Origin: Streptomyces plumbidurans
Lineage (GTDB): Bacteria > Actinomycetota > Actinomycetes > Streptomycetales > Streptomycetaceae
Assembly: GCF_019857225.1 (NCBI RefSeq)
Contig: NZ_JAFJSY010000001.1
Coordinates: 186,001-250,000, forward strand
Direction of reading: 5' to 3'
Length of the DNA stretch: 64,000 bases
The translations under genes were made by a program, and so were the position numbers. The notes beneath the pieces are model-generated. The model had not been told where the DNA came from. It was given only the letters and a program-made list of their open reading frames with translations, and ran no database searches. Shown here piece after piece: positions 3,536 through 19,069 of this stretch. Numbering within the stretch: the stretch's first letter is position 1; the number at the start of each line of letters is the position of its first letter.

Positions 3536-3723
3536 GACCCCACCATGACACCCCCGCAGCGGGCACGGCGTGCGTGGCGGCGACGGGCGAGTACTGCACA
3601 TGCCACCCGAGGCGTCCCCCAAAGCGCGAAAGACCTCCGCCTTTGACATCGTTCCGGGCCTTTGCGGCAAGGCCGCCTACGGATTCGCCACTGTCTCACC
3701 CCCTTCAGAAGGAGGCACACCGC

Positions 3724-5100
3724 ATGGTCGCCAGACATGCTGTGGGCGCGCGCCGCGCCGCCCTGACCGCGCTCGGCGCTCTCGTCCTCACCCAGGTCCC
3801 GTCCGCAGCCGCGGCCCCGCCACCACCCGCGCCGGGCCCCGTCAGCATCGCCGCCCGCACCCTGGACACCGTCCGGCCGTCCGCGCAGATGCTGCAGGCG
3901 ATGCAACGCGACCTGGGCCTGACGCGGCAGCAGGCGAAGGCCAGGCTGACCAACGAGGCCGAGGCCGGCACCCGTGCGGGCCGCCTGCGCAACGCACTGG
4001 GCGGGCACTTCGCCGGCGCCTGGGTGCACGGAACGACCTCCGCCGAACTCACCGTCGCCACCACGCACGCGGCGGACGTGGCCGCCATCCAGGCGCAGGG
4101 CGCCAAGGCCGCGGTCGTCACCACACCGCTCAGCACCCTGCAGGCACTCAAGGAAAGGCTGGACGCGACCGCTCTGCACCGCCGTTCCCACGACACCCCG
4201 GTCTGGTACGTCGACGTACCGGCCAACCGGGTCGTCGTCCAGGCGACCAGGAAGTCGGCGGCCAGCGCCTTCGTCAAGGCCGCCGGCCTCGAAGGGCGGG
4301 GCGTGGTCATCCGGGTGTCGGCGGCGCGGCCCAAGCTGCGCGAGGACATCGTCGGCGGCGACGCCTACTACATCGACAACAGCGCCCGCTGCTCCGTCGG
4401 CTTCTCGGTCACCAAGGGCAGCCGGCAGGGCTTCGTCAGCGCGGGCCACTGCGGCAAGCCCGGCTCGACGACCACCGGGTACGACAAGACCGACCAGGGC
4501 ACCTTCCAGGCGTCCACCTTCCCCGGCAAGGACATGTCCTGGGTGGCCGTCAACAGCAACTGGACCGCCACGCCGGACTACAAGGGTCAGGGCGGCAAGC
4601 GGGCGCAGATCGCCGGCTCGGTCCAGGCGCTCGTCGGAGCGTCCGTGTGCCGCTCCGGCTCCACCTCCGGCTGGCACTGCGGCACCATCCAGCAGCTCGG
4701 CGCCACGGTCGACTACGAAGAGGGCACCGTCACCGGCCTGACCCGCACCAGCGTGTGCTCCGAACCGGGCGACTCCGGCGGGCCGTTCGTCTCCGGCGCG
4801 CAGGCCCAGGGCACCACCTCCGGCGGCTCGGGCGACTGCACCACCGGCGGAACCACCTTCTTCCAGCCGGTCAACCCGATCCTGAGCGACTTCGGCCTCA
4901 CCCTGAAGACCGCGGCCTCCCAGTCCGGCACGCAGGGCCCGCAGGACAACGCGGCCGACGCATGGCGGGCCGGGCGGGTCTACCAGACCGGTGACACGGT
5001 CAGCCACGCAGGCGTCCGCTACCAGTGCCTGCAGACCCACCAGGCACAGGCGGTCTGGACCCCGGACGGCACGCCGTCCCTGTGGCAGCGGGTGAAGTAA
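3724..5100 (+). CDS. Secreted streptogrisin-type serine protease with C-terminal chitin-binding domain
   Basis: A 458-residue pre-pro-protease. Signal peptide: residues 1 to about 30 (twin Arg, hydrophobic LTALGALVL, Ala-rich cleavage region). An alpha-lytic-type prodomain spans about 35-205. The mature S1A chymotrypsin fold starts near D208 (DIVGGDAYYIDN) with the triad H242 (SAGHCG), D270 (KDMSW) and S351 (GDSGGPF). The last 45 residues (AWRAGRVYQTGDTVSH...) form a CBM5/12-type chitin-binding module with the usual Trp/Tyr residues. This order matches streptogrisin C. ATG 3724 has GAAGGAGG at good spacing; earlier starts in the frame lack a ribosome site. Probably acts outside the cell on chitin-associated protein. 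Monocistronic, with a terminator just beyond. Confidence 0.93.
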   Translation: MVARHAVGARRAALTALGALVLTQVPSAAAAPPPPAPGPVSIAARTLDTVRPSAQMLQAMQRDLGLTRQQAKARLTNEAEAGTRAGRLRNALGGHFAGAWVHGTTSAELTVATTHAADVAAIQAQGAKAAVVTTPLSTLQALKERLDATALHRRSHDTPVWYVDVPANRVVVQATRKSAASAFVKAAGLEGRGVVIRVSAARPKLREDIVGGDAYYIDNSARCSVGFSVTKGSRQGFVSAGHCGKPGSTTTGYDKTDQGTFQASTFPGKDMSWVAVNSNWTATPDYKGQGGKRAQIAGSVQALVGASVCRSGSTSGWHCGTIQQLGATVDYEEGTVTGLTRTSVCSEPGDSGGPFVSGAQAQGTTSGGSGDCTTGGTTFFQPVNPILSDFGLTLKTAASQSGTQGPQDNAADAWRAGRVYQTGDTVSHAGVRYQCLQTHQAQAVWTPDGTPSLWQRVK

Positions 5101-5126
5101 CGGGTGGAGTAGGAGTACGGCATGTG

Positions 5127-5153
5127 CGGTGCGGGGACACGATCCCCGCACCG
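5127..5153. terminator. Hairpin terminator between convergent protease and hydrolase genes
   Basis: Inverted repeat CGGTGCGGGGA-CACGA-TCCCCGCACCG with 11-base arms and a 5-base loop. It lies between the protease stop and the hydrolase stop and could end transcription in both directions. No U tract, as is usual at high GC. Confidence 0.75.
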
Positions 5154-5178
5154 TTCGTGTGTCCGGGCCCTGGACCGC

Positions 5179-6294
5179 CTACGCCTCGGCCAGCAGCCGG
5201 TACGCCGTCGCCACGAAGGGGTCGTGGGCGCGGACGCGGCGTGTGCACAGGGCGACCAGGGCGGTGCCGGTGTCGGGGCGGAAGCCCAGGAAGGCCTGTT
5301 GGCCGAGGGTGGCGCCGCCGTGGAAGTACAGGGGACCGGTGTCGGTGGGGTGCCGGAACCAGGCCGTGGTGTGGACGTGGCGGTGCCCGAGTCCACGGCG
5401 TAGCACCGGTGTGCGGACCGCTCGCAGGGCGCCGGCCAGGCGGGTGTCGGGCGGGTCGAGGTGGGCTTCGAGGAAGGTGAGCAGGTCGTGCGGGGTGGCG
5501 CGGACGGCGCCCGCCGCCTGGAAGCCGCCCGCGTCGAAGGCGGGCACGGGGGTGCGGCCGTCCTTGCGGTGTCCGGCGGCATCGGTGCCCGGGCCGTGCG
5601 CGTGCAGGGCGGTGTCGTCGAGGTCCAGTGGGCGCAGGATCTGCTCGGTGAGCAGGTCCTCCCAGGCGGTGCCGGTCGCCGCCGCGACGGCGTGGCCGAG
5701 TACGGCGACCCCGAAGTTGGAGTAGCGCCAGCGGGTGCCTGGACGGGGTGCGGGGCGGCGGCGCAGGAAGGCGTCGATGACGCGTTCGGCTGGGTAGCGG
5801 GCGTAGGGCGTGGTGTGCCAGACGGGCAGGGAACGCGGGAAGAAGTCGGGTGGCAGGGCGGGCAGTCCGGAGGTGTGGGTGAGGAGGTGAGCGAGCGTCA
5901 CGGGGGTCGCGCCGCGGTGCCGGGCAGGGGCCAGGCAGACGGTGGCCGGCTCGCCCCCGGACAGCACGCCGCGCCGGATCAGCTGGGCCAGCAGCAGTCC
6001 GGTGAAGGTCTTGGAGGCGGAGCCGAGTTCGTAGCGCAGGTCCTGACGGGGCGTGGGTGGCGGCGGGGCGGTGCCGCCGCAGTGCAGGGTGCGGCGGCCG
6101 TGGCGGGAGACGGCGAGGACGACGTCGGGTGCGTCGACGGCGTCCACGGCCGCCTGCAGGCGCTGGCCCAACTCCTCGTCGTGCGCGGCCTGTTTGCGCT
6201 CCGTCTCCGCGGAGCGGCCCGCCCGAAAGTCGTCCGCGTCGTGCGGGTCGCCCGGCCAGGGCCCGGCCGAGGTGCTCAGGAGGAAGGTGTTCAT
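5179..6294 (-). CDS. Penicillin-recognising serine hydrolase (class C beta-lactamase/DD-peptidase fold), last gene of the peptide operon
   Basis: A 371-residue member of the beta-lactamase-related serine hydrolases. It has the SxxK motif (S92-A-S-K95), a YSN motif (WRYSNFG, near residue 195) and a third-box HGG (YFHGGATLG, near residue 325). The family includes DD-peptidases, esterases, D-amino-acid peptidases and peptide cyclases. There is no convincing signal peptide, so it is probably cytoplasmic, unlike cell-wall enzymes of the family. Its ATG overlaps the upstream stop (ATGA), so it is translationally coupled to the two paralogous unknown genes. In that setting it could process or cyclise the small peptide encoded at the head of the operon; this is inference only. 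Confidence 0.88.
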   Translation of the reverse strand: MNTFLLSTSAGPWPGDPHDADDFRAGRSAETERKQAAHDEELGQRLQAAVDAVDAPDVVLAVSRHGRRTLHCGGTAPPPPTPRQDLRYELGSASKTFTGLLLAQLIRRGVLSGGEPATVCLAPARHRGATPVTLAHLLTHTSGLPALPPDFFPRSLPVWHTTPYARYPAERVIDAFLRRRPAPRPGTRWRYSNFGVAVLGHAVAAATGTAWEDLLTEQILRPLDLDDTALHAHGPGTDAAGHRKDGRTPVPAFDAGGFQAAGAVRATPHDLLTFLEAHLDPPDTRLAGALRAVRTPVLRRGLGHRHVHTTAWFRHPTDTGPLYFHGGATLGQQAFLGFRPDTGTALVALCTRRVRAHDPFVATAYRLLAEA

Positions 6295-7211
6295 GAGGTG
6301 ACGTGCGCCATCTCGGACAGGGCGCGGGAGGTGGCCAGCACGGAGGCGAAGGCGGCGACGAGGGTGGGGTGGTAGACCAGGTCGAACACCTCCTCGGGCT
6401 CGCCCTCGGGCATGGTGCGTACGGCGGGCATGGCACCGTCGGGCTGCTGCGCCGCGGCGAACGCCTGCCAGGCCCGCTCGTCGAGGGTGGGGCGGGGCAG
6501 ACAGGCGTCGACGACGAGGAGTTCGCCGAGCAGGTCCCAGCGCTCGAGGTCCAGCCAGTCGTCGATCCACACCGGCAGCCAGGTGGCGAGGTAGTCGGCG
6601 ATGCGCGGCGGCAGGCCCTCGGGACGCTCTCCCCAGTCGGTCAGGTGGAACACCGCGTGGGTGATGTCGTAGGCGATGTGCCCGCCGACCGTCCAGGGTT
6701 CGGGAGTGCGGCCCAGCCAGGTGTTGCCGACGATGTCGGCCTCCGGTGGGCGGGGCGTGAGGCCGTAGCGGCGCTCGAAGGCGGACAGGCCGAGGCGGCG
6801 GGTGGGGTGCAGTTCCAGCGCGGACCAGCTGGTCAGCCGGTGGTAGAGGGCGGTGGCGCGTTCCACCTCGGGCTCGCTGTAGCCGAGTTCCCGGTAGGGC
6901 CGGTACACCTCGAAGGGGATGGGCGAGAGCGGTTCGATGCGCTGGCCGCGCACCAGCGCGCGGCCGCCGTCCAGGGTGTCGCGCCAGGTGTGGTCCACCA
7001 ACCGGCGTGCCAGTTCGGCCTGTTGTGACCCGGCCACGCCCTCGCGGAACAACACGCCGCAGATCAGGGCGAGTTCGCCGACCGGTTTGAACCGCTCCAG
7101 GAAGCCCACTTCCGGATCGACGTCGGGTTCCAGGCGGAAGCCGTCGCGGTGGGCCCACAGCCAATCGAGGGCGCGGACGCCGACGGTGTGCAGCAGACGG
7201 GTGTCGGTCAT
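6291..7211 (-). CDS. Conserved protein of unknown function, paralogue B of the peptide operon (possibly DUF6895)
   Basis: A 306-residue, mainly helical, Trp-rich soluble protein clearly homologous to the next gene upstream along its whole length. Shared blocks include TWLG-(2)-PEPWT, THxVFHLTDWG, a D/E-rich WDL-(2)-ELL segment, the LPRP turn and a C-terminal YHxTL motif. I do not recognise a catalytic motif. The conserved THxVFH might bind a metal or be structural. I tentatively recall such proteins as DUF6895, from memory. ATGA overlaps join it to both neighbours. It may form a heterodimer with its paralogue acting on the operon's peptide; this is unproven. Confidence 0.8.
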   Translation of the reverse strand: MTDTRLLHTVGVRALDWLWAHRDGFRLEPDVDPEVGFLERFKPVGELALICGVLFREGVAGSQQAELARRLVDHTWRDTLDGGRALVRGQRIEPLSPIPFEVYRPYRELGYSEPEVERATALYHRLTSWSALELHPTRRLGLSAFERRYGLTPRPPEADIVGNTWLGRTPEPWTVGGHIAYDITHAVFHLTDWGERPEGLPPRIADYLATWLPVWIDDWLDLERWDLLGELLVVDACLPRPTLDERAWQAFAAAQQPDGAMPAVRTMPEGEPEEVFDLVYHPTLVAAFASVLATSRALSEMAHVTS

Positions 7212-8134
7212 GCCGGTACTCCCTGTGTCAGAGCCGCGGCGAAGGCCAGCATGAGGGTGGAGTGGTAGCCGTGGACGAAGCCCGGCTCCGGGTCGGCCGC
7301 GTCGGTGTGCGCGGGGTCGGGGGCCACCAACGGGAGTGCGCCGGAGGGGTGTTGGACCCGCGCGATCCGCGTCCAGGCGTCCCGCAGCGTGGCCGCGTCG
7401 ATCGGGCGGGGCAGGCTCGCGGCCACGATCAGCAGTTCGCAGGCGAGGTCCCACATCCCGGCGTCCAGGCAGGTGTCGAGCCAGGGCGGCAGCCAGTCGG
7501 TCAGATAGGCGGCCAGTTCGGCGGGGACGTCCTGGGCGGTGCGGCCCCAGTCGGTGAGATGGAAGACGACGTGGGTGAGGGCGTAGCCGGAGGCGCGCTC
7601 GAAGGTCCACGGTTCCGGCAGTCCGCCGAGCCAGGTGCGGCCGAGCGCCTGCGTGAACGGCTCCGGACGGTGGATGTCGCTGCGTCGCTCGGCGTTCAAC
7701 AGGCCGAGCCGCCGGGTGGGTTCCTGCTCGGTGAGGCGCCAGCCGCGGCTGCGCGCGACCGTGGCGGCCGCCGCCTCGTACCCGGCGTGCCGCAGTCCGG
7801 CGCCCGCGAAGACGGAGTACACCTCCAGCGGGTACGTCGCGAACGGCTCGGTGCGCTGCAGGCGCAGGAACAGCTCGCCCCGGACCGTCTGCTGCCAGGC
7901 GAAGTCCAGCAGGTCGGACGCGCAGGCGTGCAGCGGGTCCGAGGGCGGGGTGCAGCGGCGCACGCTCACGCAGGTCTGGGCCAGTTCGCCGAGGGGTTTC
8001 CAGGTGAGGTCGACCGGGCCGTCGGTGGTGAGGGCGTCCGCGCCCAGCGCGAAGTCGCCGCGGTGGGCGGACACCCAGCCGAGCGCGGCGACCGCCACGT
8101 CCCGGATCAGCCGGGTGTCCACGGCGGTCGTCAT
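7208..8134 (-). CDS. Conserved protein of unknown function, paralogue A of the peptide operon (possibly DUF6895)
   Basis: A 308-residue protein paralogous to the downstream gene (TWLGGLPEPWTFE, THVVFHLTDWG, ELLIVAASLPRP, YHSTLMLAFA). It lacks a signal peptide, membrane segments and any nucleotide-binding or radical-SAM motif. It differs from its paralogue most in the first 120 residues, where it carries three cysteines (CVSVRRC and HACAS) absent from the other copy. It starts at ATG 8134, overlapping the stop of the gene before it (ATGA), and its own stop overlaps the next start. Retention of both copies in one operon suggests subunits of a complex. Confidence 0.8.
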   Translation of the reverse strand: MTTAVDTRLIRDVAVAALGWVSAHRGDFALGADALTTDGPVDLTWKPLGELAQTCVSVRRCTPPSDPLHACASDLLDFAWQQTVRGELFLRLQRTEPFATYPLEVYSVFAGAGLRHAGYEAAAATVARSRGWRLTEQEPTRRLGLLNAERRSDIHRPEPFTQALGRTWLGGLPEPWTFERASGYALTHVVFHLTDWGRTAQDVPAELAAYLTDWLPPWLDTCLDAGMWDLACELLIVAASLPRPIDAATLRDAWTRIARVQHPSGALPLVAPDPAHTDAADPEPGFVHGYHSTLMLAFAAALTQGVPA

Positions 8135-8826
8135 ACGAGCGCTCCGGCCCGGCGCATCGCGCGTGCCGCCGCCACCTGGAGGGCGACCCGGGGGTCGCTG
8201 CCGCCCATCAGCTCCACGAAGTCGAGGCCGCCGTCGAGGCCGAGCGTGTCCGGCACCCCGTCCAGCAGGGTCAGCCAGCGGCCGGCGCCCGCGGCCTGCT
8301 GCCAGTCCCTGCGGCGCACCGCCCTGACGAAGCCGCGGGCGACGTCGACCGGGCGGCTGCGCGCGGCGCGCGCCACCGCGCAGTCCGCGCCGGGCACCGC
8401 GAGCGGTGCCAGGACGGCGAGTTGATGGGTGAGGTACTGCCAGCTCGCGCCGTCCAGCCAGGCGCCGTCGGGCTCCGGTCCCTCCTCGGCCGCGGGCGTG
8501 GAGTCCGGGGGCTGCTCGAAGTGGCGCAGGGTGCGCCGCATCGCCCAGTGGCTCCATACGACGGTGGGGGCGGCGTCGGTGCGGGGCGGGAAGGCGCTGA
8601 CCGTCTGCCGGAGCGTGTCGAGCGTGTCCGGGGGCGGCGGGGTGCGGGCCAGGAGGTGCGGCAGCAACAGGTCCGCGCCCAGAACGCGTACGGCCGCGAC
8701 GGTGATGCCGTCCTCGGGGCCGCCGGTGACCGGGGCGTGGCCCCCGCCCCGAAGGGCGGAGGCCACGTCCGACGAGAGGTCCTGCACCGCGCCCTGCAGG
8801 AGGGCGCCCGTGCCTGACTGCTCCAT
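8131..8826 (-). CDS. Unknown protein, second gene of the peptide operon
   Basis: A 231-residue soluble protein that I do not recognise. Visible features: an N-terminal helical stretch, a Gly-rich turn (ALRGGGHAPVTGG), a hydrophobic segment (VLGADLLLPHLLA), a proline-rich linker, a central WSHWAMRRTLRHFE helix, and an Arg/Ala-rich C-terminus (ALQVAAARAMRRAG). There is no signal peptide or enzyme signature. It begins 22 bases after the small peptide gene with GGGAG as ribosome site, and its stop overlaps the next start, so it is co-translated with the paralogous pair. The position directly after a small peptide gene is where RiPP systems often place a partner or maturation protein. Confidence 0.78.
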   Translation of the reverse strand: MEQSGTGALLQGAVQDLSSDVASALRGGGHAPVTGGPEDGITVAAVRVLGADLLLPHLLARTPPPPDTLDTLRQTVSAFPPRTDAAPTVVWSHWAMRRTLRHFEQPPDSTPAAEEGPEPDGAWLDGASWQYLTHQLAVLAPLAVPGADCAVARAARSRPVDVARGFVRAVRRRDWQQAAGAGRWLTLLDGVPDTLGLDGGLDFVELMGGSDPRVALQVAAARAMRRAGALV

Positions 8827-8848
8827 TCAGCTGCTCCCGTCGGCTCGC

Positions 8849-9037
8849 TCAGCCCTTCTTCGGGCGGGGGGTCGGCGGGGAGAGCAGCAGTGAGGTGGTT
8901 CCGGAGGTCAGCGCGAGTGCGGCGCACTCGCGGCTGTCACGGTAGACGCCGTCGGGCTCGGCCGGGTCGAGTGCCGCCTCGATATCGACGCTCTGGATCT
9001 CCGTGAGTTCCGCGACCGTCTTGTCCGTGGAAGGCAT
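8849..9037 (-). CDS. 62-residue peptide, candidate precursor or signal peptide heading the operon
   Basis: A small protein starting MPSTDKTVAELTEIQ behind a strong ribosome site (AGAGGAG, 8 bases). Residues 1-30 are acidic and look like a leader (helical VAELTEIQSVDIEAALD, then PAEPDG). Residues 31-62 are different: VYRDSREC, a Ser/Thr/Leu stretch (LALTSGTTSLLL), then SPPTPRPKKG. There is one cysteine (C38) and no signal peptide. This leader/core-like split and its place at the head of a five-gene operon suggest a ribosomally made, modified peptide, but no recognised RiPP enzyme is encoded nearby. A longer in-frame start (GTG 9115, 88 residues) exists but lacks a comparable ribosome site. Confidence 0.65.
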   Translation of the reverse strand: MPSTDKTVAELTEIQSVDIEAALDPAEPDGVYRDSRECAALALTSGTTSLLLSPPTPRPKKG

Positions 9038-9057
9038 ACGACCATCTCCTCTGGGTG

Positions 9058-9074
9058 TACGAACAGCCTTCGTA
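9058..9074. promoter_or_regulatory. Palindromic operator candidate TACGAA-N5-TTCGTA before the peptide operon
   Basis: A perfect 6-5-6 inverted repeat 21 bases upstream of the peptide start and just downstream of a possible -10 box (TATGGT). Its place at or just after the likely transcription start fits a repressor site. No regulator gene is linked to the operon. Confidence 0.5.
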
Positions 9075-9083
9075 ACCCAGGTC

Positions 9084-9089
9084 ACCATA
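9084..9089 (-). promoter_or_regulatory. Possible -10 box of the peptide operon
   Basis: TATGGT on the minus strand in an AT-richer stretch (9080-9130). No good -35 match lies 16-18 bases away, so this is only a candidate. It places transcription initiation next to the TACGAA palindrome. Confidence 0.3.
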
Positions 9090-9111
9090 TGCGCACAAAG
9101 CATGCAAACCG

Positions 9112-9126
9112 TCACAAAGTTCTCAT
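9112..9126 (-). other. Mini-ORF of four codons (MRTL) with a strong ribosome site
   Basis: GAAGGAG sits 6 bases before ATG-AGA-ACT-TTG-TGA. The TGA overlaps a GTG that opens the long version of the peptide frame. It may be a leader ORF, a remnant, or chance. Confidence 0.3.
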
Positions 9127-9149
9127 TGGTAACTCCTTCAACAACCCGC

Positions 9150-9755
9150 TCAGGCCAGGTATTCGGTCGCCGCGTCCAGCAGCCAGTCCGTCAGATAGCC
9201 GGCGAAGGAGGAGCGCACCAGCACCCAGAATCCGGCGCGTGGTTGGTCCCGGGCGACCAGGACGACCTGGGTGCGGGCCAGCGTCGTCTGGGCGCAGCGG
9301 CCGGCGCCGAACACCCGCGGGTGCAGGTCGAGCGAGCAGCCGTGGGCCAGCAGGTCGCGGGCGCGGGGGCCGGCGACCAGCAGCGTGGTGCGCTGGGCGG
9401 AGACGTCGGTGACGGAGACGTGCTCGTCCCCGGCCGCCTCCCGGATGCGGGCCTCCACGGCCGCCTGGCTGCCCGGCGCCCCCACCACCAGCCATTCGTC
9501 CGGGCCGAGCCAGACCGCGGTCAGCTCCCCGGTCCGTACGACCGTGTTGGGTTCCAGGGGCAGTTGCAGTCCCAGCGCGAGCCCGACCGCGTCCGCCGCC
9601 CCTCCCTTGGCGTCCAGGCGGACGTTCACCTGGGCCAGGAAGGGCAGCTCGGCCAGCCGGATCGCGCCCCGGGAGGCGCGGGTCGCGGCGGCCAGGCGGT
9701 GGGCGTCGTGTGCCAGGGGGCTGCGGGGCGGGGCGGAAAGCGCGGTGTCAGCCAT
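9150..9755 (-). CDS. soxG: Sarcosine oxidase, gamma subunit
   Basis: A 201-residue gamma subunit of heterotetrameric sarcosine oxidase, which oxidatively demethylates sarcosine to glycine and yields methylene-tetrahydrofolate and H2O2. Typical features are the RLAELPFLAQVNVRLD start, the WLGPDEWLVVG core (about residues 82-92) and the C-terminal RSSFAGYLTDWLLDA helix. It has the weak GcvT-like fold of the family and no catalytic residues of its own. It overlaps the alpha-subunit gene by 8 bases and ends the large betaine-catabolic operon. No hairpin is visible after it. Confidence 0.93.
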   Translation of the reverse strand: MADTALSAPPRSPLAHDAHRLAAATRASRGAIRLAELPFLAQVNVRLDAKGGAADAVGLALGLQLPLEPNTVVRTGELTAVWLGPDEWLVVGAPGSQAAVEARIREAAGDEHVSVTDVSAQRTTLLVAGPRARDLLAHGCSLDLHPRVFGAGRCAQTTLARTQVVLVARDQPRAGFWVLVRSSFAGYLTDWLLDAATEYLA

Positions 9756-12700
9756 CGCGGTGGGCTCCCTCGGGGTCGTAGAGGACGGGGCTTGCGACGG
9801 TCACCGGGACCAGTCGGCCGCCCACGGGGGCGTACAGCCGCTCGCCGATGCGGTCCCGGCCGCCCTTGACCAGGGCCAGCGCGAAGGTCCGGCCCAGGGC
9901 GGCGCTGCGGTAGCTGGAGGTGACATGGCCGAGCATCGGGACCGGCGGGGCGGGCAGCACGCTGTCGGCCACCAAGTGGGTGCCCTCGGGCAGGAAGGTG
10001 CCGGGCTCCTCCGTCAACAGGCCGACCAGGTGCTTGCGGTCGGGGCGGGCGGTGTCGGCGCGGGCGTAGGAGCGCTTGCCGATGAAGTCGGGCTTCTTCT
10101 TGGACACCGCCCAGCTCATGCCGAGGTCCTGCGGGGTGACCGTGCCGTCGGTGTCCTGCCCGACGATCGGGTAGCCCTTCTCCGCCCGCAGCACATGCAT
10201 GGTCTCGGTGCCGTACGGGGTGATGCCGTACGGGGCACCGGCCTCGCACAGCGCCTCCCACAGGGCGAGCGCCTCCCACGGCGATACGTTGATCTCGTAG
10301 GCGAGTTCACCGGAGAAGCTGATCCGGCACACGCGCGCGTCGAGCCCTGCGACTGTCGTCTCTCGCCAGGCCATGAACGGGAAGTCCTCGTTGGCGACGG
10401 CCAGTTGGGGTGCCAGCGAGCCGAGGACCGCGCGCGACTTGGGGCCGACCAGGGCAACGGTGGCCCACTGCTCGGTGACCGACGTGCAGTGGACGCGCAG
10501 TTCGGGCCACTCGGTCTGCAGCCACTCCTCCATCCAGTCCAGTACGGCGGCGGCGTTGCCCGTGGTCGTGGTGACCAGGAAGCGGTCCTGGGCGAGACGC
10601 ATGACCGTGCCGTCGTCGAAGACCATGCCGTCCGGGCGGCACATGACGCCGTAGCGGATCATGCCGGTCTTCAGGGTGCTGATCATGTTGGTGTACAGCC
10701 GGTCGAGGAAGAGTGCCGCGTCCGGGCCCTGCACGTCGATCTTGCCCAGCGTGGAGGCGTCCATGAACGCGACGCCCTCGCGGGCGGCCGCGCACTCGCG
10801 CAGCACGGCCGACTCCATGTCCTCGCCGTCCTGCGGGTAGTACCAAGGACGCTTCCACTGGCCGACGTTCTCGAACAGCGCGCCGTGCGTGACATGCCAC
10901 GCGTGCAGGGCCGTCGTACGCACCGGGTCGCTCAGTCCGCCCCGGTCGCGGCCGGCGAGCGCGGCGAAGGAGACCGGGACGTAGGGCGGTCGGAACGTGG
11001 TCGTGCCGAGCGCGGAGATGTCCACACCGAGCAGCTCGGCGACCACCCCGCTGGCGAGCACGCCGGAGGTCTTGCCCTGGTCGTTCGCGGTACCGGCGGT
11101 GGTATAGCGCTTGGTGTGCTCCACCGAGCGCATGCCGGCCGCCGTGGCGCGGGTCAAGTCGTCGACGGTGACGTCCCGTTGGAGGTCCACGAAGCGCGGG
11201 GCGCCCTCGCGGCCGGGGACGGTGAAGACCTGCATCGGCGGGGTAGGCCGCGGCTGTGCCGGTACGGCCGGGAGGGCGGGGGCCTGCGCCGCGTATCCCT
11301 CGGCCTCCAGCGCACGGACACCCGCCGCCGCACCCTGCGCCAGGACCCCGGCCAGGTCGAGAACACCGCTCGCACTGCCCGCGACCTCGACGGCCTGACG
11401 GCAACTGTCCGGCACGAAGGTGCCGAGCGTTTCGTCGTGGCGGAGCCTGCCGCCGGCCTGGCTGAACAGGTGCGCCACCGGGTTCCAGCCGCCTGAGACC
11501 AGGAGGAGGTCGGCGGTGAACTCCCTTTGTTTTTCGGTCCTTCCGTACGTGGAGACGGTGACCGAGGTCAGGCGGGTGTCGCCGTCCGTGCCGGTGACCG
11601 CGTGGCCGGGCAGCACCTCGATGCCTGCCGTGCGGGCACGCTCGGCCCACTCCCCCGCATCGTCACGGGTGTCGACGATCGCGGCGATCTCCACGCCCGC
11701 CGCGGCGAGGTCCAGTGCGGCGGCGTAGGCGCTGTCGTTGGTGGTGAACACGACGGCGCGGCGGCCGGGCAGGACGCCGTACCGGTTGGCGTAGGTGCGG
11801 GCCGAATGGGCCAGCATCACGCCGGGACGGTCGTTGTCGGCGAAGGCGAGGGAACGCTCGTGGGCGCCGGTGGCGAGCACGACGCGGCGGGCGCGGATGC
11901 GGTGGACGCGTTCACGGGCGACGTTGGGTGGGGCGGCGGCGCCTAGGTGGTTGGTGCGGCGCTCCACGGCGAGGAGGTGGTTGTCGTCGTAGTAGCCGAA
12001 GACGGTGGTGCGGTGAAGGACGCGGATGTCCGGCGATGTGGTCAGCAGCCGGGTCGTTTCGCTTACCCAGGTGGGGAGTTCGCCGGTGCCGAGGAGGCTG
12101 CCGCCGAGTTCCGGCTGGTCGTCGGCGAGGATGACGCGGGCGCCCGAGCGAGCTGCCGCTGCGGCTGCGGCGAGGCCTGCGGGGCCCGCGCCGACGATCA
12201 GTACGTCGCAGTGGTCGTGAACGGCGTCGTAGCGGGCCGGGTCCGGTTCGGTGGCGAGGCGGCCCTGGCCGGGGAGGCTGGTGGCGACGAGGCCGTCGTA
12301 GAGCTCGACGGTGGTGGCCGGGAGCATGGGCTCCGGGAAGGGTTCTTCTATCTGGATGACGGCGTTGGGTTCCTCTGCGCCGGCGGAGAAGATGCCGCGG
12401 GGGCGGCCGAGTTTGATACTTGTGGCGGCTTGGATGACGCCGTTGGCGAGCAGGGCGGAGGCCAGGGTGTCGCCTTCTCGGCCCTGGTATTCGGCGCCGT
12501 CGAACGTGAAAGTCAAGGTGCGGGTGTTTGTGCGGGTGCGGGTGCGTGCTGGGGGCTCTGCCCCCAGACCCCCGATCGGCCCCGAAAGGGCCTCGTCCTC
12601 AAACGCCGGACGGGCTGAATACAGCCCACCCCGCTCAGCCGTTGCGGGACGCTCCTCCCCCACTCGGTACACCGTCAGGATCTCGTTCGTCGATGTGTCC

Positions 12701-12912
12701 CGTACCGCGTTGAACCAGCGGCGGCATCCCGCCGTGTGGTTCCAGCGTTCGGCGAAGGGGCCCTTGGGGTTGTCGCGGAAGAAGAGGTAGCGGGCCCATT
12801 CCTCGTCGGTGAGGGCCGACGGGTCGTCCGGGTAGGGGATGTGGGCCTGGCCGCCGTAGTGGTACTCGGACTCGTCGCGGGGCCCGCACCACGGGCAGGG
12901 GATGAGCAGCAT
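9748..12912 (-). CDS. soxA: Fused sarcosine oxidase delta-alpha subunit
   Basis: One open frame of 1054 residues. Residues 1-90 are a complete delta subunit (zinc-binding CPWCGPRDE; FRDNPKGPF; WNHTAGCRRWFNAVRDT). Residues about 132-1054 are the alpha subunit: a ferredoxin-like N-domain (FTFDGAEYQGREGDTLASAL), an NAD/FAD-binding domain with GAGPAGLAAA, and a GcvT-like folate domain at the C-terminus. In other actinobacteria I know these are two genes, soxD and soxA. Here no stop or credible second start separates them; the linker (91-131) is encoded by an intergenic-type repeat. A TTG at the LTFTFDG segment could start alpha alone but has no ribosome site. It starts 12 bases after soxB. A frameshift error at the join cannot be excluded. 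Confidence 0.9.
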   Translation of the reverse strand: MLLIPCPWCGPRDESEYHYGGQAHIPYPDDPSALTDEEWARYLFFRDNPKGPFAERWNHTAGCRRWFNAVRDTSTNEILTVYRVGEERPATAERGGLYSARPAFEDEALSGPIGGLGAEPPARTRTRTNTRTLTFTFDGAEYQGREGDTLASALLANGVIQAATSIKLGRPRGIFSAGAEEPNAVIQIEEPFPEPMLPATTVELYDGLVATSLPGQGRLATEPDPARYDAVHDHCDVLIVGAGPAGLAAAAAAARSGARVILADDQPELGGSLLGTGELPTWVSETTRLLTTSPDIRVLHRTTVFGYYDDNHLLAVERRTNHLGAAAPPNVARERVHRIRARRVVLATGAHERSLAFADNDRPGVMLAHSARTYANRYGVLPGRRAVVFTTNDSAYAAALDLAAAGVEIAAIVDTRDDAGEWAERARTAGIEVLPGHAVTGTDGDTRLTSVTVSTYGRTEKQREFTADLLLVSGGWNPVAHLFSQAGGRLRHDETLGTFVPDSCRQAVEVAGSASGVLDLAGVLAQGAAAGVRALEAEGYAAQAPALPAVPAQPRPTPPMQVFTVPGREGAPRFVDLQRDVTVDDLTRATAAGMRSVEHTKRYTTAGTANDQGKTSGVLASGVVAELLGVDISALGTTTFRPPYVPVSFAALAGRDRGGLSDPVRTTALHAWHVTHGALFENVGQWKRPWYYPQDGEDMESAVLRECAAAREGVAFMDASTLGKIDVQGPDAALFLDRLYTNMISTLKTGMIRYGVMCRPDGMVFDDGTVMRLAQDRFLVTTTTGNAAAVLDWMEEWLQTEWPELRVHCTSVTEQWATVALVGPKSRAVLGSLAPQLAVANEDFPFMAWRETTVAGLDARVCRISFSGELAYEINVSPWEALALWEALCEAGAPYGITPYGTETMHVLRAEKGYPIVGQDTDGTVTPQDLGMSWAVSKKKPDFIGKRSYARADTARPDRKHLVGLLTEEPGTFLPEGTHLVADSVLPAPPVPMLGHVTSSYRSAALGRTFALALVKGGRDRIGERLYAPVGGRLVPVTVASPVLYDPEGAHRDG
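12548..12625. repeat. Streptomyces-type intergenic repeat translated as the soxD-soxA linker
   Basis: Contains two hairpin units: CTGGGGG-CTCTG-CCCCCAG and GGCCC-CGAAA-GGGCC, followed by the segment read on the minus strand as CCGTCCGGCGTTTGAGGACG. I recall this as part of a very common intergenic repeat in Streptomyces genomes. It encodes residues 98-122 (YSARPAFEDEALSGPIGG...) of the fused subunit. Confidence 0.7.
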
Positions 12913-12924
12913 GGGTTGGGCTCC

Positions 12925-14157
12925 CTAGTGGGCCACCGCGGCGGCGCCGTGTTCGTCGACGAGCGCGCCGGTGGTGAAACGGTCGAGCGAGAAGGGGGCG
13001 TTGAGGGGGTGGGGGGTGTCGTGGGCGATGGTGTGGGCGTAGACCCAGCCGACGCCGGGGGTGGCCTTGAAACCGCCCGTGCCCCAGCCGCAGTTGAGGT
13101 AGAGGTTGTCGACGGGGCTGAGGCCGACGATGGGTGAGGCGTCGGGGCTGACGTCGACGATGCCGCCCCAGGTGCGCAGGACGTGGGCGCGGGCGAAGAC
13201 CGGGAAGAGCTCCAGGGCCGCGGACATCTGGTCCTCGATGATGTGGAAGGCGCCGCGCTGGGTGTAGGAGTTGTAGGCGTCGATGCCCGCGCCCATCACC
13301 AGCTCGCCCTTGTGGGCCTGGCTGACGTAGACGTGGACGGCGTTGGACATGACGACCGTCGGGTGGACCGGCTCCAGGAGTTCGGAGACCAGGGCCTGCA
13401 AGGGGTGGCTCTGGACGGGGAGTTCGATGCCCGCCATGGCGGCGAGGACCGAGGTGTGGCCCGCCGAGCACAGGGCGACCTTGCCCGCCGCGATGGGGCC
13501 CAGATTGGTCTGGACGCCGACCACGCGGTTTCCGACCACGTCCAGGCCGGTGACCTCGCAGTTCTGGATGATGTCGATGCCGGCGGCATCGGCGGAGCGG
13601 GCCAGGCCCCAGGCGACGTGGTCGTGCTTGGCGATGCCCGCGCGCGGCTGGTAGGTGGCGCCGAGGACGGGATAGCGCACGTCCTGGCTGATGTTGACGA
13701 TCGGGCAGACTTCCTTGACCTGCTCGGCGTCGAGGTACTCCGCGTCGACTCCGTTGAGCCGGTTGGCCTCGACGCGGCGCACGCTGTCGCGGACGTCCTG
13801 GAGGCTGTGGGCGAGGTTCAGCACGCCGCGCTGGGAGAAGAGGATCGGGTAGTCGAGGTCGTCGGCCAGGCCCTCCCAGAGCTTGAGGGCGTGCTCGTAG
13901 ATGCCGGCGCTCTCGTCCCAGAGGTAGTTGGAGCGGATGATCGTGGTGTTGCGGGCCATGTTGCCGCCCGCGAGCCAGCCCTTCTCCAGTACGGCGACAT
14001 TGGTGATGCCGTGGTTCTTGGCGAGGTAGTGCGCGGTGGCCAGGCCGTGTCCGCCGCCGCCGACGACGACGACGTCGTACGAGCGCTTCGGCTCGGGTGT
14101 GCGCCACAGGAAGTCGGGGTGTTCGGGCAGCTCGGCGCCGGGGGTGCGGGGGCTCAT
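12925..14157 (-). CDS. soxB: Sarcosine oxidase, beta subunit
   Basis: The 410-residue flavin-binding catalytic beta subunit. It has an N-terminal dinucleotide-binding motif ([17 protein letters not shown], residues about 30-46), the [16 protein letters not shown] block following the first domain, and a C-terminal [12 protein letters not shown] motif. Family members oxidise sarcosine at an FAD/FMN pair shared with alpha. The ATG overlaps the glyA stop (ATGA), so sarcosine oxidation is translationally linked to serine hydroxymethyltransferase. It ends with TAG, 12 bases before the fused delta-alpha gene. Confidence 0.95.
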
Positions 14158-15521
14158 GCGGTGTCTCCGGCTTCTGTTGCCGCCTGTGACAGGGATGCCG
14201 CCTGTGACAGGGATGCCGCCTGTGACAGGGATGCCGCCTGTGACGGGGATGCTGCCTGTGACAGGTGCGGGTAGAGCGGGTGCCGGGCGGCCAGGGCCCG
14301 GGTGCGGGCGCGCAACGCGGCGGTGTCGGGGGCGGGTTGGAGGGCCAGCGCGATCACGTCGGCGACCTCGGTGAAGTCGTCCTCGGTGAAGCCGCGGGTG
14401 GCGAGCGCCGGGGTGCCGATGCGCAGGCCCGAGGTGACCATGGGCGGGCGCGGGTCGAAGGGCACGGCGTTGCGGTTGACGGTGATGCCGATGTCGTGGA
14501 GGAGGTCCTCCGCCTGACGGCCGTCAAGGTCTGAATCGCGCAGGTCGACCAGGACCAGGTGGACGTCCGTGCCGCCGGTGAGGACCTTCACGCCGGCAGC
14601 CGCCGCGTCGGCCTGGGTGAGGCGATCGGCGAGGATGCGGGCGCCGGCCAGGGTGCGGGCCTGGCGGTCGGCGAACTCCGGTGAAGCGGCGACCTTGAAG
14701 GAGACCGCCTTCGCGGCGATGACGTGTTCCAGCGGGCCGCCCTGCATCCCGGGGAACACCGCCGAGTTGATCTTCTTGGCGAGGTCGGCCTCGTTGGTGA
14801 GGATGACGCCGCCGCGCGGGCCGCCGAGGGTCTTGTGCGTGGTCGTGGTGGTGACATGGGCGTGCGGCACGGGGTTGGGGTGCAGTCCGGCGGCGACCAG
14901 GCCCGCGAAGTGCGCCATGTCGACCATGAGCAGCGCGCCGACCTCGTCGGCGATGCGGCGGAAGGCGGCGAAGTCCAGCTGCCGGGGGTACGCCGACCAG
15001 CCCGCGATGATCATCTTGGGGCGGTGTTCCTTGGCGAGGCGCTCGACCTCGTCCATGTCGACCAGGTTGTCGGCCTCGGAGACGTGATACGGCACGACGT
15101 TGAGCATCTTGCCGCTGTAGTTGATGCGCATGCCGTGGGTGAGATGACCGCCGTGTGCGAGGTCGAGGCCGAGGACGGTGTCGCCGGGCTGCAACAGGGC
15201 GAAGAAGACGGCCGTGTTCGCCTGGGCGCCGGAGTGCGGCTGGACGTTGGCGAACCCTGCCCCGAACAGGGACTTGATCCGCTCGATCGCCAACCGCTCG
15301 GTGACGTCGACGTGTTCGCAGCCGCCGTAGTAGCGGCGGCCGGGATAGCCCTCGGCGTACTTGTTGGTGGCGACCGAGCCCTGCGCCTCCATCACGGCGG
15401 TGGGCGCGAAGTTCTCGGAGGCGATCATCTCCAGGGTGGACTGCTGGCGGTGCAGTTCGGCGCGCAGGGCGTCGTGGACCTCGGGGTCCAGCTGGGCCAG
15501 CGGGGTGTTCAGCGCGTTCAT
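14154..15521 (-). CDS. glyA: Serine hydroxymethyltransferase with repetitive C-terminal tail
   Basis: A 455-residue PLP enzyme converting glycine plus methylene-THF to serine. It has the standard start ([11 protein letters not shown]), the [10 protein letters not shown] substrate region and the PLP lysine motif [14 protein letters not shown]. The last 35 residues ([17 protein letters not shown]...) are not part of the enzyme fold and come from 18-base tandem repeats. It is placed between folD and soxB with overlaps at both ends, so glycine and C1 units from sarcosine oxidase can be used directly. ATG 15521 overlaps the folD stop. Confidence 0.95.
14179..14265. repeat. 18-base tandem repeat in the glyA 3' end
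   Basis: Four full copies of gccgcctgtgacagggat (the fourth with one change) and a partial fifth copy. Each unit encodes six residues of the pattern SQAASL. It lies wholly inside glyA and keeps the frame, so it is an in-frame slippage array, not a CRISPR. Confidence 0.9.
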
Positions 15522-16378
15522 ACCGGGTTCGCGTTCCTCTCGGCGGCCTCGACGACGTTGGCGAGCAGCATGGCGCGGGTCATGGGGCCCACTCCCCCGG
15601 GCATCGGCGCGAGCCGTCCGGCGACCGAGGCGGCCTCCGGGTGCACGTCGCCGACCAGCCCCTGCTCGGTGCGGGTGATGCCGACGTCCAGGACGGCCGC
15701 GCCGGGGCGCAGCATGTCCTTGGTGATCAGTCCGGGCGACCCGGCGGCCGAGACGACGATGTCCGCCTCGCAGGTGTGCCAGGCCAGGCCCTTGGTTCCG
15801 GTGTGGCAGAGGGTCACGGTGGCGTTCTCCGACCTGCGGGTCAGCAGCAGGCCGATGGGGCGTCCGACGGTGATGCCGCGCCCGATCACGCACACCCGTG
15901 CGCCCGCGAGGGGCACGTCGTGGCGGCGCAGCAGCTCCACGATGCCGCGCGGGGTGCACGGCAGCGGCGCCTCGACGCCCAGCACGAGCCGGCCGAGGTT
16001 GACGGGGTGCAGTCCGTCGGCGTCCTTGGCCGGGTCCATCCGTTCCAGTACGGCGTTGGCGTCCAGGTGTGCGGGGAGCGGCAGTTGGACGATGTAGCCG
16101 GTGCAGGCAGGGTCGGCGTTGAGCTCGTCGATCACGTCCTCGACCTGGCTCTGCGAGGCGTCGGCGGGCAGATCCCGGCGGATCGACGCGATCCCCACCT
16201 GCGCACAGTCGCGGTGCTTGCCACCGACGTAGGCCCGGCTGCCCGGGTCGTCGCCGACCAGGACCGTGCCAAGCCCCGGCGCGCGGCCGGTGGTGGCTGC
16301 CAACTTGGCCACGCGCTCGGCGAGTTCGCTGCGGATGTCGGCGGCAGTCGCCTTGCCGTCGAGGAGTTGTGCGGTCAC
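15518..16378 (-). CDS. folD: Bifunctional methylene-THF dehydrogenase/cyclohydrolase
   Basis: A 286-residue enzyme oxidising 5,10-methylene-THF to 10-formyl-THF. It shows the catalytic YVGGKHRDC segment (family YxxxK, residues about 50-58), QLPLPAHLD and the C-terminal signature [14 protein letters not shown]. It starts with GTG behind AAGGAA, and its stop overlaps the glyA start. Placed after dimethylglycine oxidase, it disposes of the C1 groups released on THF by the two demethylating oxidases; PurU, encoded elsewhere in the island, can then release formate. Probably a second folD beside a housekeeping copy (inference). Confidence 0.95.
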
Positions 16379-16414
16379 CGGTGGTGTTCCTTTCCTCGGA
16401 TGCGACGCGGAGAG

Positions 16415-19069
<2,655 letters not shown>

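Follow-up and report, generated by a model that had tools for sequence, protein, structure and literature searches.

A conserved five-gene Streptomyces operon with a short peptide, DUF6895 proteins and a serine hydrolase: a candidate pathway for an epimerized ribosomal peptide

We analyzed a 64,000-nucleotide stretch of the Streptomyces plumbidurans genome (hereafter the window; positions 186,001 to 250,000 of contig NZ_JAFJSY010000001.1), part of an 8.64 Mb assembly labelled G000. It contains an operon of five minus-strand open reading frames (ORFs; window positions 9037-5179) encoding a 62-residue peptide (pep), a helical protein (P231), two paralogous DUF6895 proteins (D1 and D2) and a serine hydrolase. 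That these genes form a dedicated peptide system is strongly supported, and the operon is likely a pathway for a ribosomally synthesized and post-translationally modified peptide (RiPP). The best single mechanism that we can offer, and one towards which we lean only slightly, is that pep is epimerized by the DUF6895 proteins, with the hydrolase then acting on the epimerized peptide. A RiPP-type reading is favored because of the linkage of the genes, the match between peptide type and enzyme number, the modular selection on the peptide, a published title on DUF6895 and the D-peptidase relatives of the hydrolase, and also because DUF6895 occurs in a second RiPP-like context and conserves residues H185, D226, H281, E46 and E230. 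The features are as follows.

9038..9062, minus strand: leader of pep, with a purine-rich ribosome-binding site (GAGGAGATGG)
8849..9037, minus strand: pep, putative precursor peptide, 62 residues; no Pfam or NCBIfam match at E<=1
8131..8826, minus strand: P231, helical protein, 231 residues, putative peptide-binding partner or scaffold; no Pfam or NCBIfam match at E<=1
7208..8134, minus strand: D1, first DUF6895 paralog, 308 residues, putative peptide epimerase; PF21836, 287.8 bits
6291..7211, minus strand: D2, second DUF6895 paralog, 306 residues, putative peptide epimerase; PF21836, 285.4 bits
5179..6294, minus strand: S12-type (beta-lactamase fold) serine hydrolase, 371 residues, putative D-specific peptidase or cyclase; PF00144, 187.6 bits

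The genes for pep and P231 are parted by 22 nucleotides and the remaining three junctions are ATGA overlaps; ORF coordinates and sequence confirm the strand, lengths and junctions given in a preliminary description of the window. D1 and D2 are the only DUF6895 genes in G000.

Conservation and linkage of the gene set

A scan of genome contigs with D2 confirmed 155 relatives. The best 80 were kept, all titled Streptomyces, and the closest of these 80 is from Streptomyces spinosisporus (96% identical). The pep gene is present at 78 of the 80 loci; at the two exceptions (L064 and L072) the contig begins inside P231. Within an even sample of 246 Streptomyces genomes, DUF6895 is matched in 114 (113 over the cut-off) and P231 in 104 (~42%), and the sharing of genomes by the two has a hypergeometric P of 2e-58. 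Taking one P231 locus per P231-positive genome, the window included, gave a set of 104 loci. A same-strand DUF6895 gene adjoins P231 at all 104, and 101 have the hydrolase, together with two DUF6895 genes (71 loci), three (1) or one (29). Two DUF6895 genes at one locus and one at each of two others accompany P231 where the hydrolase is missing; two of these three loci (L237 and L252) stop at contig ends, and the third (L274) is decayed, with a fragmentary P231.

A short peptide gene lies just upstream of P231 in 100 of the 104 loci, belonging to type I in 73, type II in 25 and type III in 2. Of the four loci without an upstream peptide match, two (L258 and L272) offer just 1-2 bases of upstream sequence, L209 retains a peptide remnant in which a type-II-like start soon runs into a stop codon, and the fourth is the decayed L274. 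The peptide gene that the preliminary description placed at the head of the operon is therefore found upstream in homologous operons of both sets, the misses being contig ends, a remnant and decay; homologous operons lacking it were looked for, and none was found among intact loci. Peptide hidden Markov models (HMMs) were trained on 78 type I sequences from the best D2-relative loci, 12 type II sequences (8 of them in the sample) and 3 type III sequences from other genera. Against the 11,337 six-frame ORFs of the 104 loci (E<=0.01), 100 matches fell upstream of P231 on the same strand and 1 elsewhere, the latter being the L259 peptide, which is fused in frame to P231; this count shows the location of the peptide and is not an independent discovery, the training sequences coming partly from the same genomes. 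As a separate observation, one locus (L060) has two pep copies (3693-3875 and 4171-4353) with a short P231 remnant between them.

At wider taxonomic range, DUF6895 is matched in 32 of 394 genomes of a class sample and in 7 of 396 of a phylum sample. The search for P231 covered the genus Streptomyces; peptide, P231, DUF6895 and hydrolase also occur together in five genomes from four other genera, all within one other family (L146, L148-L151).

Selection on the peptide and its match to enzyme number

The tail of pep (residues 50-62) is LLLSPPTPRPKKG and near-invariant. Among 56 type I peptides of 62 residues, the uncorrected ratio of nonsynonymous to synonymous polymorphism (pN/pS) is 0.065 for residues 50-62 and 0.095 for residues 33-43, with values of 0.41 for residues 17-32, 1.03 for residues 2-16 and 1.06 for residues 44-49; D2 genes, for comparison, have a pN/pS of 0.31. 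The peptide is constrained at the protein level in two blocks parted by an unconstrained linker (44-49). Seven tail positions (P, P, P, R, P, K, K) are fixed in 78 of 78 peptides of the D2-relative loci while synonymous codons vary, and the Ser of the tail LLLS is kept in 77 of the 78. An acidic leader-like half and a C-terminal half rich in Ser/Thr/Leu plus Pro had earlier been described; the Ser/Thr-rich stretch proves to be the unconstrained linker, and the conserved parts are residues 33-43 and the tail. We infer from this pattern that a recognition block is joined through a spacer to a fixed tail, which is the candidate core. A tail so nearly fixed would fit a conserved signal better than an antibiotic.

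Type I peptides have the form ...DSRECAALAL-linker-LLLSPPTPRPKKG, with a subgroup of the form ...RDTREC-hydrophobic-LLLISPPTPRPK..., type II peptides read ...EPEA..SDAP.....-hydrophobic-LLSPKEPK.K, and type III peptides ...AALLS..P..GEP...VVQNLA.A.AF. Peptide type tracks the number of DUF6895 enzymes: tandem genes accompany type I peptides in 72 of 73 loci, the exception (L252) being cut by a contig end, and a single gene accompanies types II and III in all 27.

Predicted roles of the partner proteins and genomic context

D1 and D2 are 42% identical, in keeping with the paralogy first described, and both score far above the PF21836 cut-off of 23.8 bits. The title of Shi et al. (ACS Catal. 2026), as cited in the available text of PMC13352647, terms DUF6895 a lasso-peptide epimerase family. 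The preliminary description had proposed a RiPP or peptide-signalling system with no recognized modifying enzyme. Its first part has largely held up, given a conserved upstream peptide under protein-level selection, but its second is out of date. Because the family is so titled, it is more likely that the pair modifies the peptide than that it merely binds it. A similarity of D1 and D2 to DUF6902 was set aside, as it scored below the cut-off.

An AlphaFold2 model of D2 built from 81 sequences (predicted local distance difference test, pLDDT, 92.5; predicted template-modelling score, pTM, 0.91) has full-length alpha/alpha toroid matches to lanosterol synthase (Z 16.4), GH105 (Z 16.3) and cellobiose 2-epimerase (Z 15.9), with root-mean-square deviations of 3.4-3.7 over 259-269 residues. 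We describe the fold as a probable toroid and no more, because Foldseek found nothing at E<=0.001 and a shared helical arrangement can by itself take helical models to Z 14. In D2 numbering, H185 and D226 are kept in 100% of 67 diverse DUF6895 proteins, K42 in 97% and H281, E46 and E230 in ~94%, and the conserved H, D, E and K42 positions of D2 are also present in D1; the two His and the acidic residues could serve acid/base epimerization. A DUF6895 tree places all 52 proteins of this operon type on one branch (100/100), within which D2 proteins form one supported group and single enzymes another. D1 proteins do not form one group (2 changes; a single clade in 6% of bootstraps), and for this reason one single duplication is not demonstrated.

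DUF6895 also occurs without P231, in ten of the sampled Streptomyces. Six of these (L176-L179, L183 and L184) have a radical S-adenosylmethionine (SAM)/SPASM-like protein flanked by two DUF6895 genes, a 37-39-residue acidic peptide with one Cys and a glycosyltransferase-like gene, followed by genes for a major facilitator superfamily (MFS) transporter and prolyl oligopeptidase; another radical-SAM gene lies close by. In L176 the flanked protein is best matched in NCBIfam by the RiPP maturase family TIGR04463 (E 1.9e-33), short of the cut-off, and a 92-residue neighbor is over the cut-off for the aroma-sacti domain. We regard these clusters as a second, RiPP-like context for DUF6895. Three more of the ten (L180-L182), and L164 from another genome, encode long DUF6895 proteins of 522-593 residues; in three of the four (L164, L180, L182) a small ORF with a LDDVAGYVLAWERYVLVV-like sequence lies ahead of the long gene, and in L181 no small ORF was called there. 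The tenth genome (G499) has a sub-cut-off match only. In other genera, L147 and L152 have a single DUF6895 gene next to a divergent gene of Methyltransf_24 type, matched by Pfam for L152, which also has a P450-like neighbor.

The hydrolase belongs to PF00144 (cut-off 27 bits). The SxxK, YSN and HGG motifs reported earlier are located at residues 92 (SASK), 191 and 325, and each of 99 aligned sequences (99/99) has S..K, Y.N/T and H.G. Its first 45 residues have no strong hydrophobic stretch, in line with the apparent lack of an export signal first noted, with a best 12-residue Kyte-Doolittle mean of 0.47 versus a median of 1.94 for the neighboring secreted S1-protease family, on a measure that is crude, is not a signal-peptide predictor and gives ~2 for a few homologs. 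Its closest sequence relative in the PDB is IS11 (E 1.4e-17), with alkaline D-peptidase (1.9e-14), ClbP (1e-13) and D-Ala-D-Ala carboxypeptidases among the others. The alkaline D-peptidase, ClbP and D-Ala-D-Ala carboxypeptidase families act at D-residues. A predicted cytoplasmic S12-type enzyme beside putative epimerases may act after them, another order or an immunity role being possible as well. Assignment as a class C beta-lactamase was rejected (best NCBIfam score 71 bits versus a curated cut-off of 415).

The structure model of P231 is all helical (pLDDT 80.7) and has no Foldseek match at E<=0.001; armadillo-like structural matches (Z 8.3 over ~100 residues) lie within the range common for helical repeats. 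A RiPP recognition element is a winged helix with strands; the P231 model, of moderate confidence, is all helical and has no confident fold match. Seventeen residues are invariant across types I-III. That P231 is a diverged DUF6895 protein was dismissed by profile comparison (probability 0.3%), and the P231 and DUF6895 profiles each returned one weak, partial and unconvincing match among PDB sequences. From its position and fold class, our guess is that P231 might be a peptide-binding partner or scaffold.

Upstream of pep, at window positions ~9040-9175, an alignment of up to 27 sequences has blocks common to other loci, among them GTTGAA and a ribosome-binding region (GGAGATGG). No structured RNA was matched in Rfam at the gathering threshold in window positions 5000-9800, and an anti-phage defense system was discarded as a candidate, PADLOC giving 0 families at E<=0.1 for the five proteins. 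Directly upstream of the operon (9150-18838, minus strand) lie genes whose translations, judged by eye, resemble sarcosine oxidase subunits, glycine hydroxymethyltransferase and FolD. Convergent to the operon (3574-5100, plus strand) is a gene for a secreted trypsin-like protease with an alpha-lytic prodomain and CBM5/12. A member of this S1 protease family follows the hydrolase in 73 of the 75 D2-relative loci having a gene there. Because its orientation in the window is opposite we treat it as synteny, though a functional link is also possible.

Proposed pathway, alternatives and known systems

In the pathway that we propose, pep would be the precursor, with residues ~17-43 recognized, likely by P231, residues 44-49 as a spacer and the C-terminal LLLSPPTPRPKKG as the core. 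D1 and D2 would epimerize, at the alpha-carbon, one or more residues in the neighborhood of the conserved Leu-Leu-Leu-Ser, through acid/base catalysis by conserved His and acidic residues in the toroid cavity. The cytoplasmic S12-type hydrolase would then act beside the D-residue and would either set the tail free or cyclize it from the acyl-enzyme. The type I tail would be handled by tandem enzymes, and one enzyme may be enough for types II and III.

Several points weigh against this pathway. What is proposed about epimerization and where it occurs, about the part played by P231, about cleavage or cyclization and about the product and its purpose is all deduced from genes. The epimerase label comes from one title. 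The toroid fold is common to hydrolases and cyclases that tie with epimerases, so it is not evidence of function, and the Foldseek search with D2 was empty at E<=0.001. DUF6895 proteins beside radical-SAM proteins could play another role. P231 has no known recognition domain in structure and fold searches, the best PDB match of the hydrolase, IS11, is without D-peptidase annotation, and PF00144 also holds esterases and beta-lactamases. No transporter or regulator lies within the five-gene operon.

These points leave room for a RiPP-type or peptide-signal operon in which DUF6895 binds the peptide or modifies it otherwise, with the hydrolase serving as an ordinary leader peptidase or in immunity or degradation. 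Linkage and peptide selection are independent of the chemistry, the fold matches many non-epimerases and the family also stands beside radical-SAM genes; on the other side, the one functional report on the family, by its title, names a DUF6895 protein an epimerase, and D1, D2 and distant members alike retain residues that could act as acid or base. We consider such an operon a reasonable possibility, albeit a rather unlikely one. We find it unlikely that the system is non-biosynthetic, with pep serving a cytoplasmic P231-D1-D2 complex as a small, conserved subunit or as its regulator. A docking motif would explain the near-invariant type I tail, helical proteins suit a scaffold and the operon has no exporter, but the enzymes remain homologous across types I, II and III while the peptides of these types differ strongly, a hydrolase with intact catalytic motifs is present at 101 of 104 loci and DUF6895 occurs with other small peptides elsewhere.

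Two further readings are much less probable. PF00144 proteins often act on small molecules, which would suit a small-molecule tailoring operon in which pep is a chance or regulatory ORF; this is disfavored because pep is constrained at the protein level and occurs at 100 of 104 loci, and we find it highly doubtful. We give next to no credence to a lasso-peptide cluster like the published DUF6895 case, even though D1 and D2 share the Pfam family of the reported lasso epimerase. G000 has 0 matches to Transglut_core3 (PF13471, lasso B2) among 43 candidates scored (the cyclase and B1 were not searched for), and lasso membership of this genome was rejected on that ground. PF13471 is found in 44 of 77 DUF6895 genomes, and the nearest on the same contig is ~157 kb off (G453), by listed coordinates compared by eye and incomplete for fragmented assemblies and unlisted matches. 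Moreover, pep is without an evident lasso core.

Should the epimerization pathway be correct, a common Streptomyces peptide pathway would lack a Pfam or NCBIfam model for its precursor and for P231 (in the copies searched), an epimerase family and a D-specific-type hydrolase acting on a ribosomal peptide would offer a compact route to D-residue peptides, and a conserved candidate signal could be tested in bacteria that are harmless and tractable. More tentatively, and with less confidence than in the pathway itself, we hypothesize an unreported, widespread class of D-residue ribosomal peptides in Streptomyces, in which the near-invariant tail would be a conserved signal, not a diversifying antibiotic, made by a toroid epimerase pair and a cytoplasmic D-specific peptidase or cyclase, and DUF6895 would be a general RiPP epimerase family serving lasso, radical-SAM and the present pathways. 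DUF6895 is named in one paper of the open-access literature searched; the tail sequences and PF21836 were not found there, which does not imply absence from print at large. The available portions of open-access work on RiPPs with beta-lactamases and epimerases and on decRiPPter (including PMC7794033) describe no matching system, and the available text of PMC10368454 has nothing bearing on DUF6895.

Among known systems, the hydrolase shares its fold and catalytic motifs with ClbP, alkaline D-peptidase and D-Ala-D-Ala carboxypeptidases, a likeness at the level of fold (E ~1e-11 to 1e-14), and unlike these relatives it is without an evident export signal. Penicillin-binding-protein (PBP)-type thioesterases cyclize nonribosomal peptides with a D-residue, acting on products of nonribosomal peptide synthetases (NRPS); they are a model for a peptide cyclase of beta-lactamase fold, and differ from the operon hydrolase in their NRPS substrates. 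The radical-SAM clusters (L176 and five others) resemble the operon in having paired DUF6895 genes and a peptide gene of very small size, but have a radical-SAM protein, an MFS transporter, a prolyl oligopeptidase and a glycosyltransferase-like gene, with no P231 or S12-type neighbor seen. In the available text of PMC10406935, MslH, the lasso-peptide epimerase of MS-271, epimerizes the C-terminal Trp of the lasso precursor; if our proposed pathway is true, a ribosomal peptide would undergo a reaction of this kind here as well. MslH had no match in our searches and is set apart from D1 and D2 by description, not by sequence. The lasso epimerase of Shi et al., as far as the available text citing it (PMC13352647) goes, is like D1 and D2 a PF21836 member. 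Its pathway differs from the present one, where the genome has no lasso B2, the peptide is a different one, the partners are P231 and an S12-type hydrolase, and the DUF6895 genes often stand in tandem.

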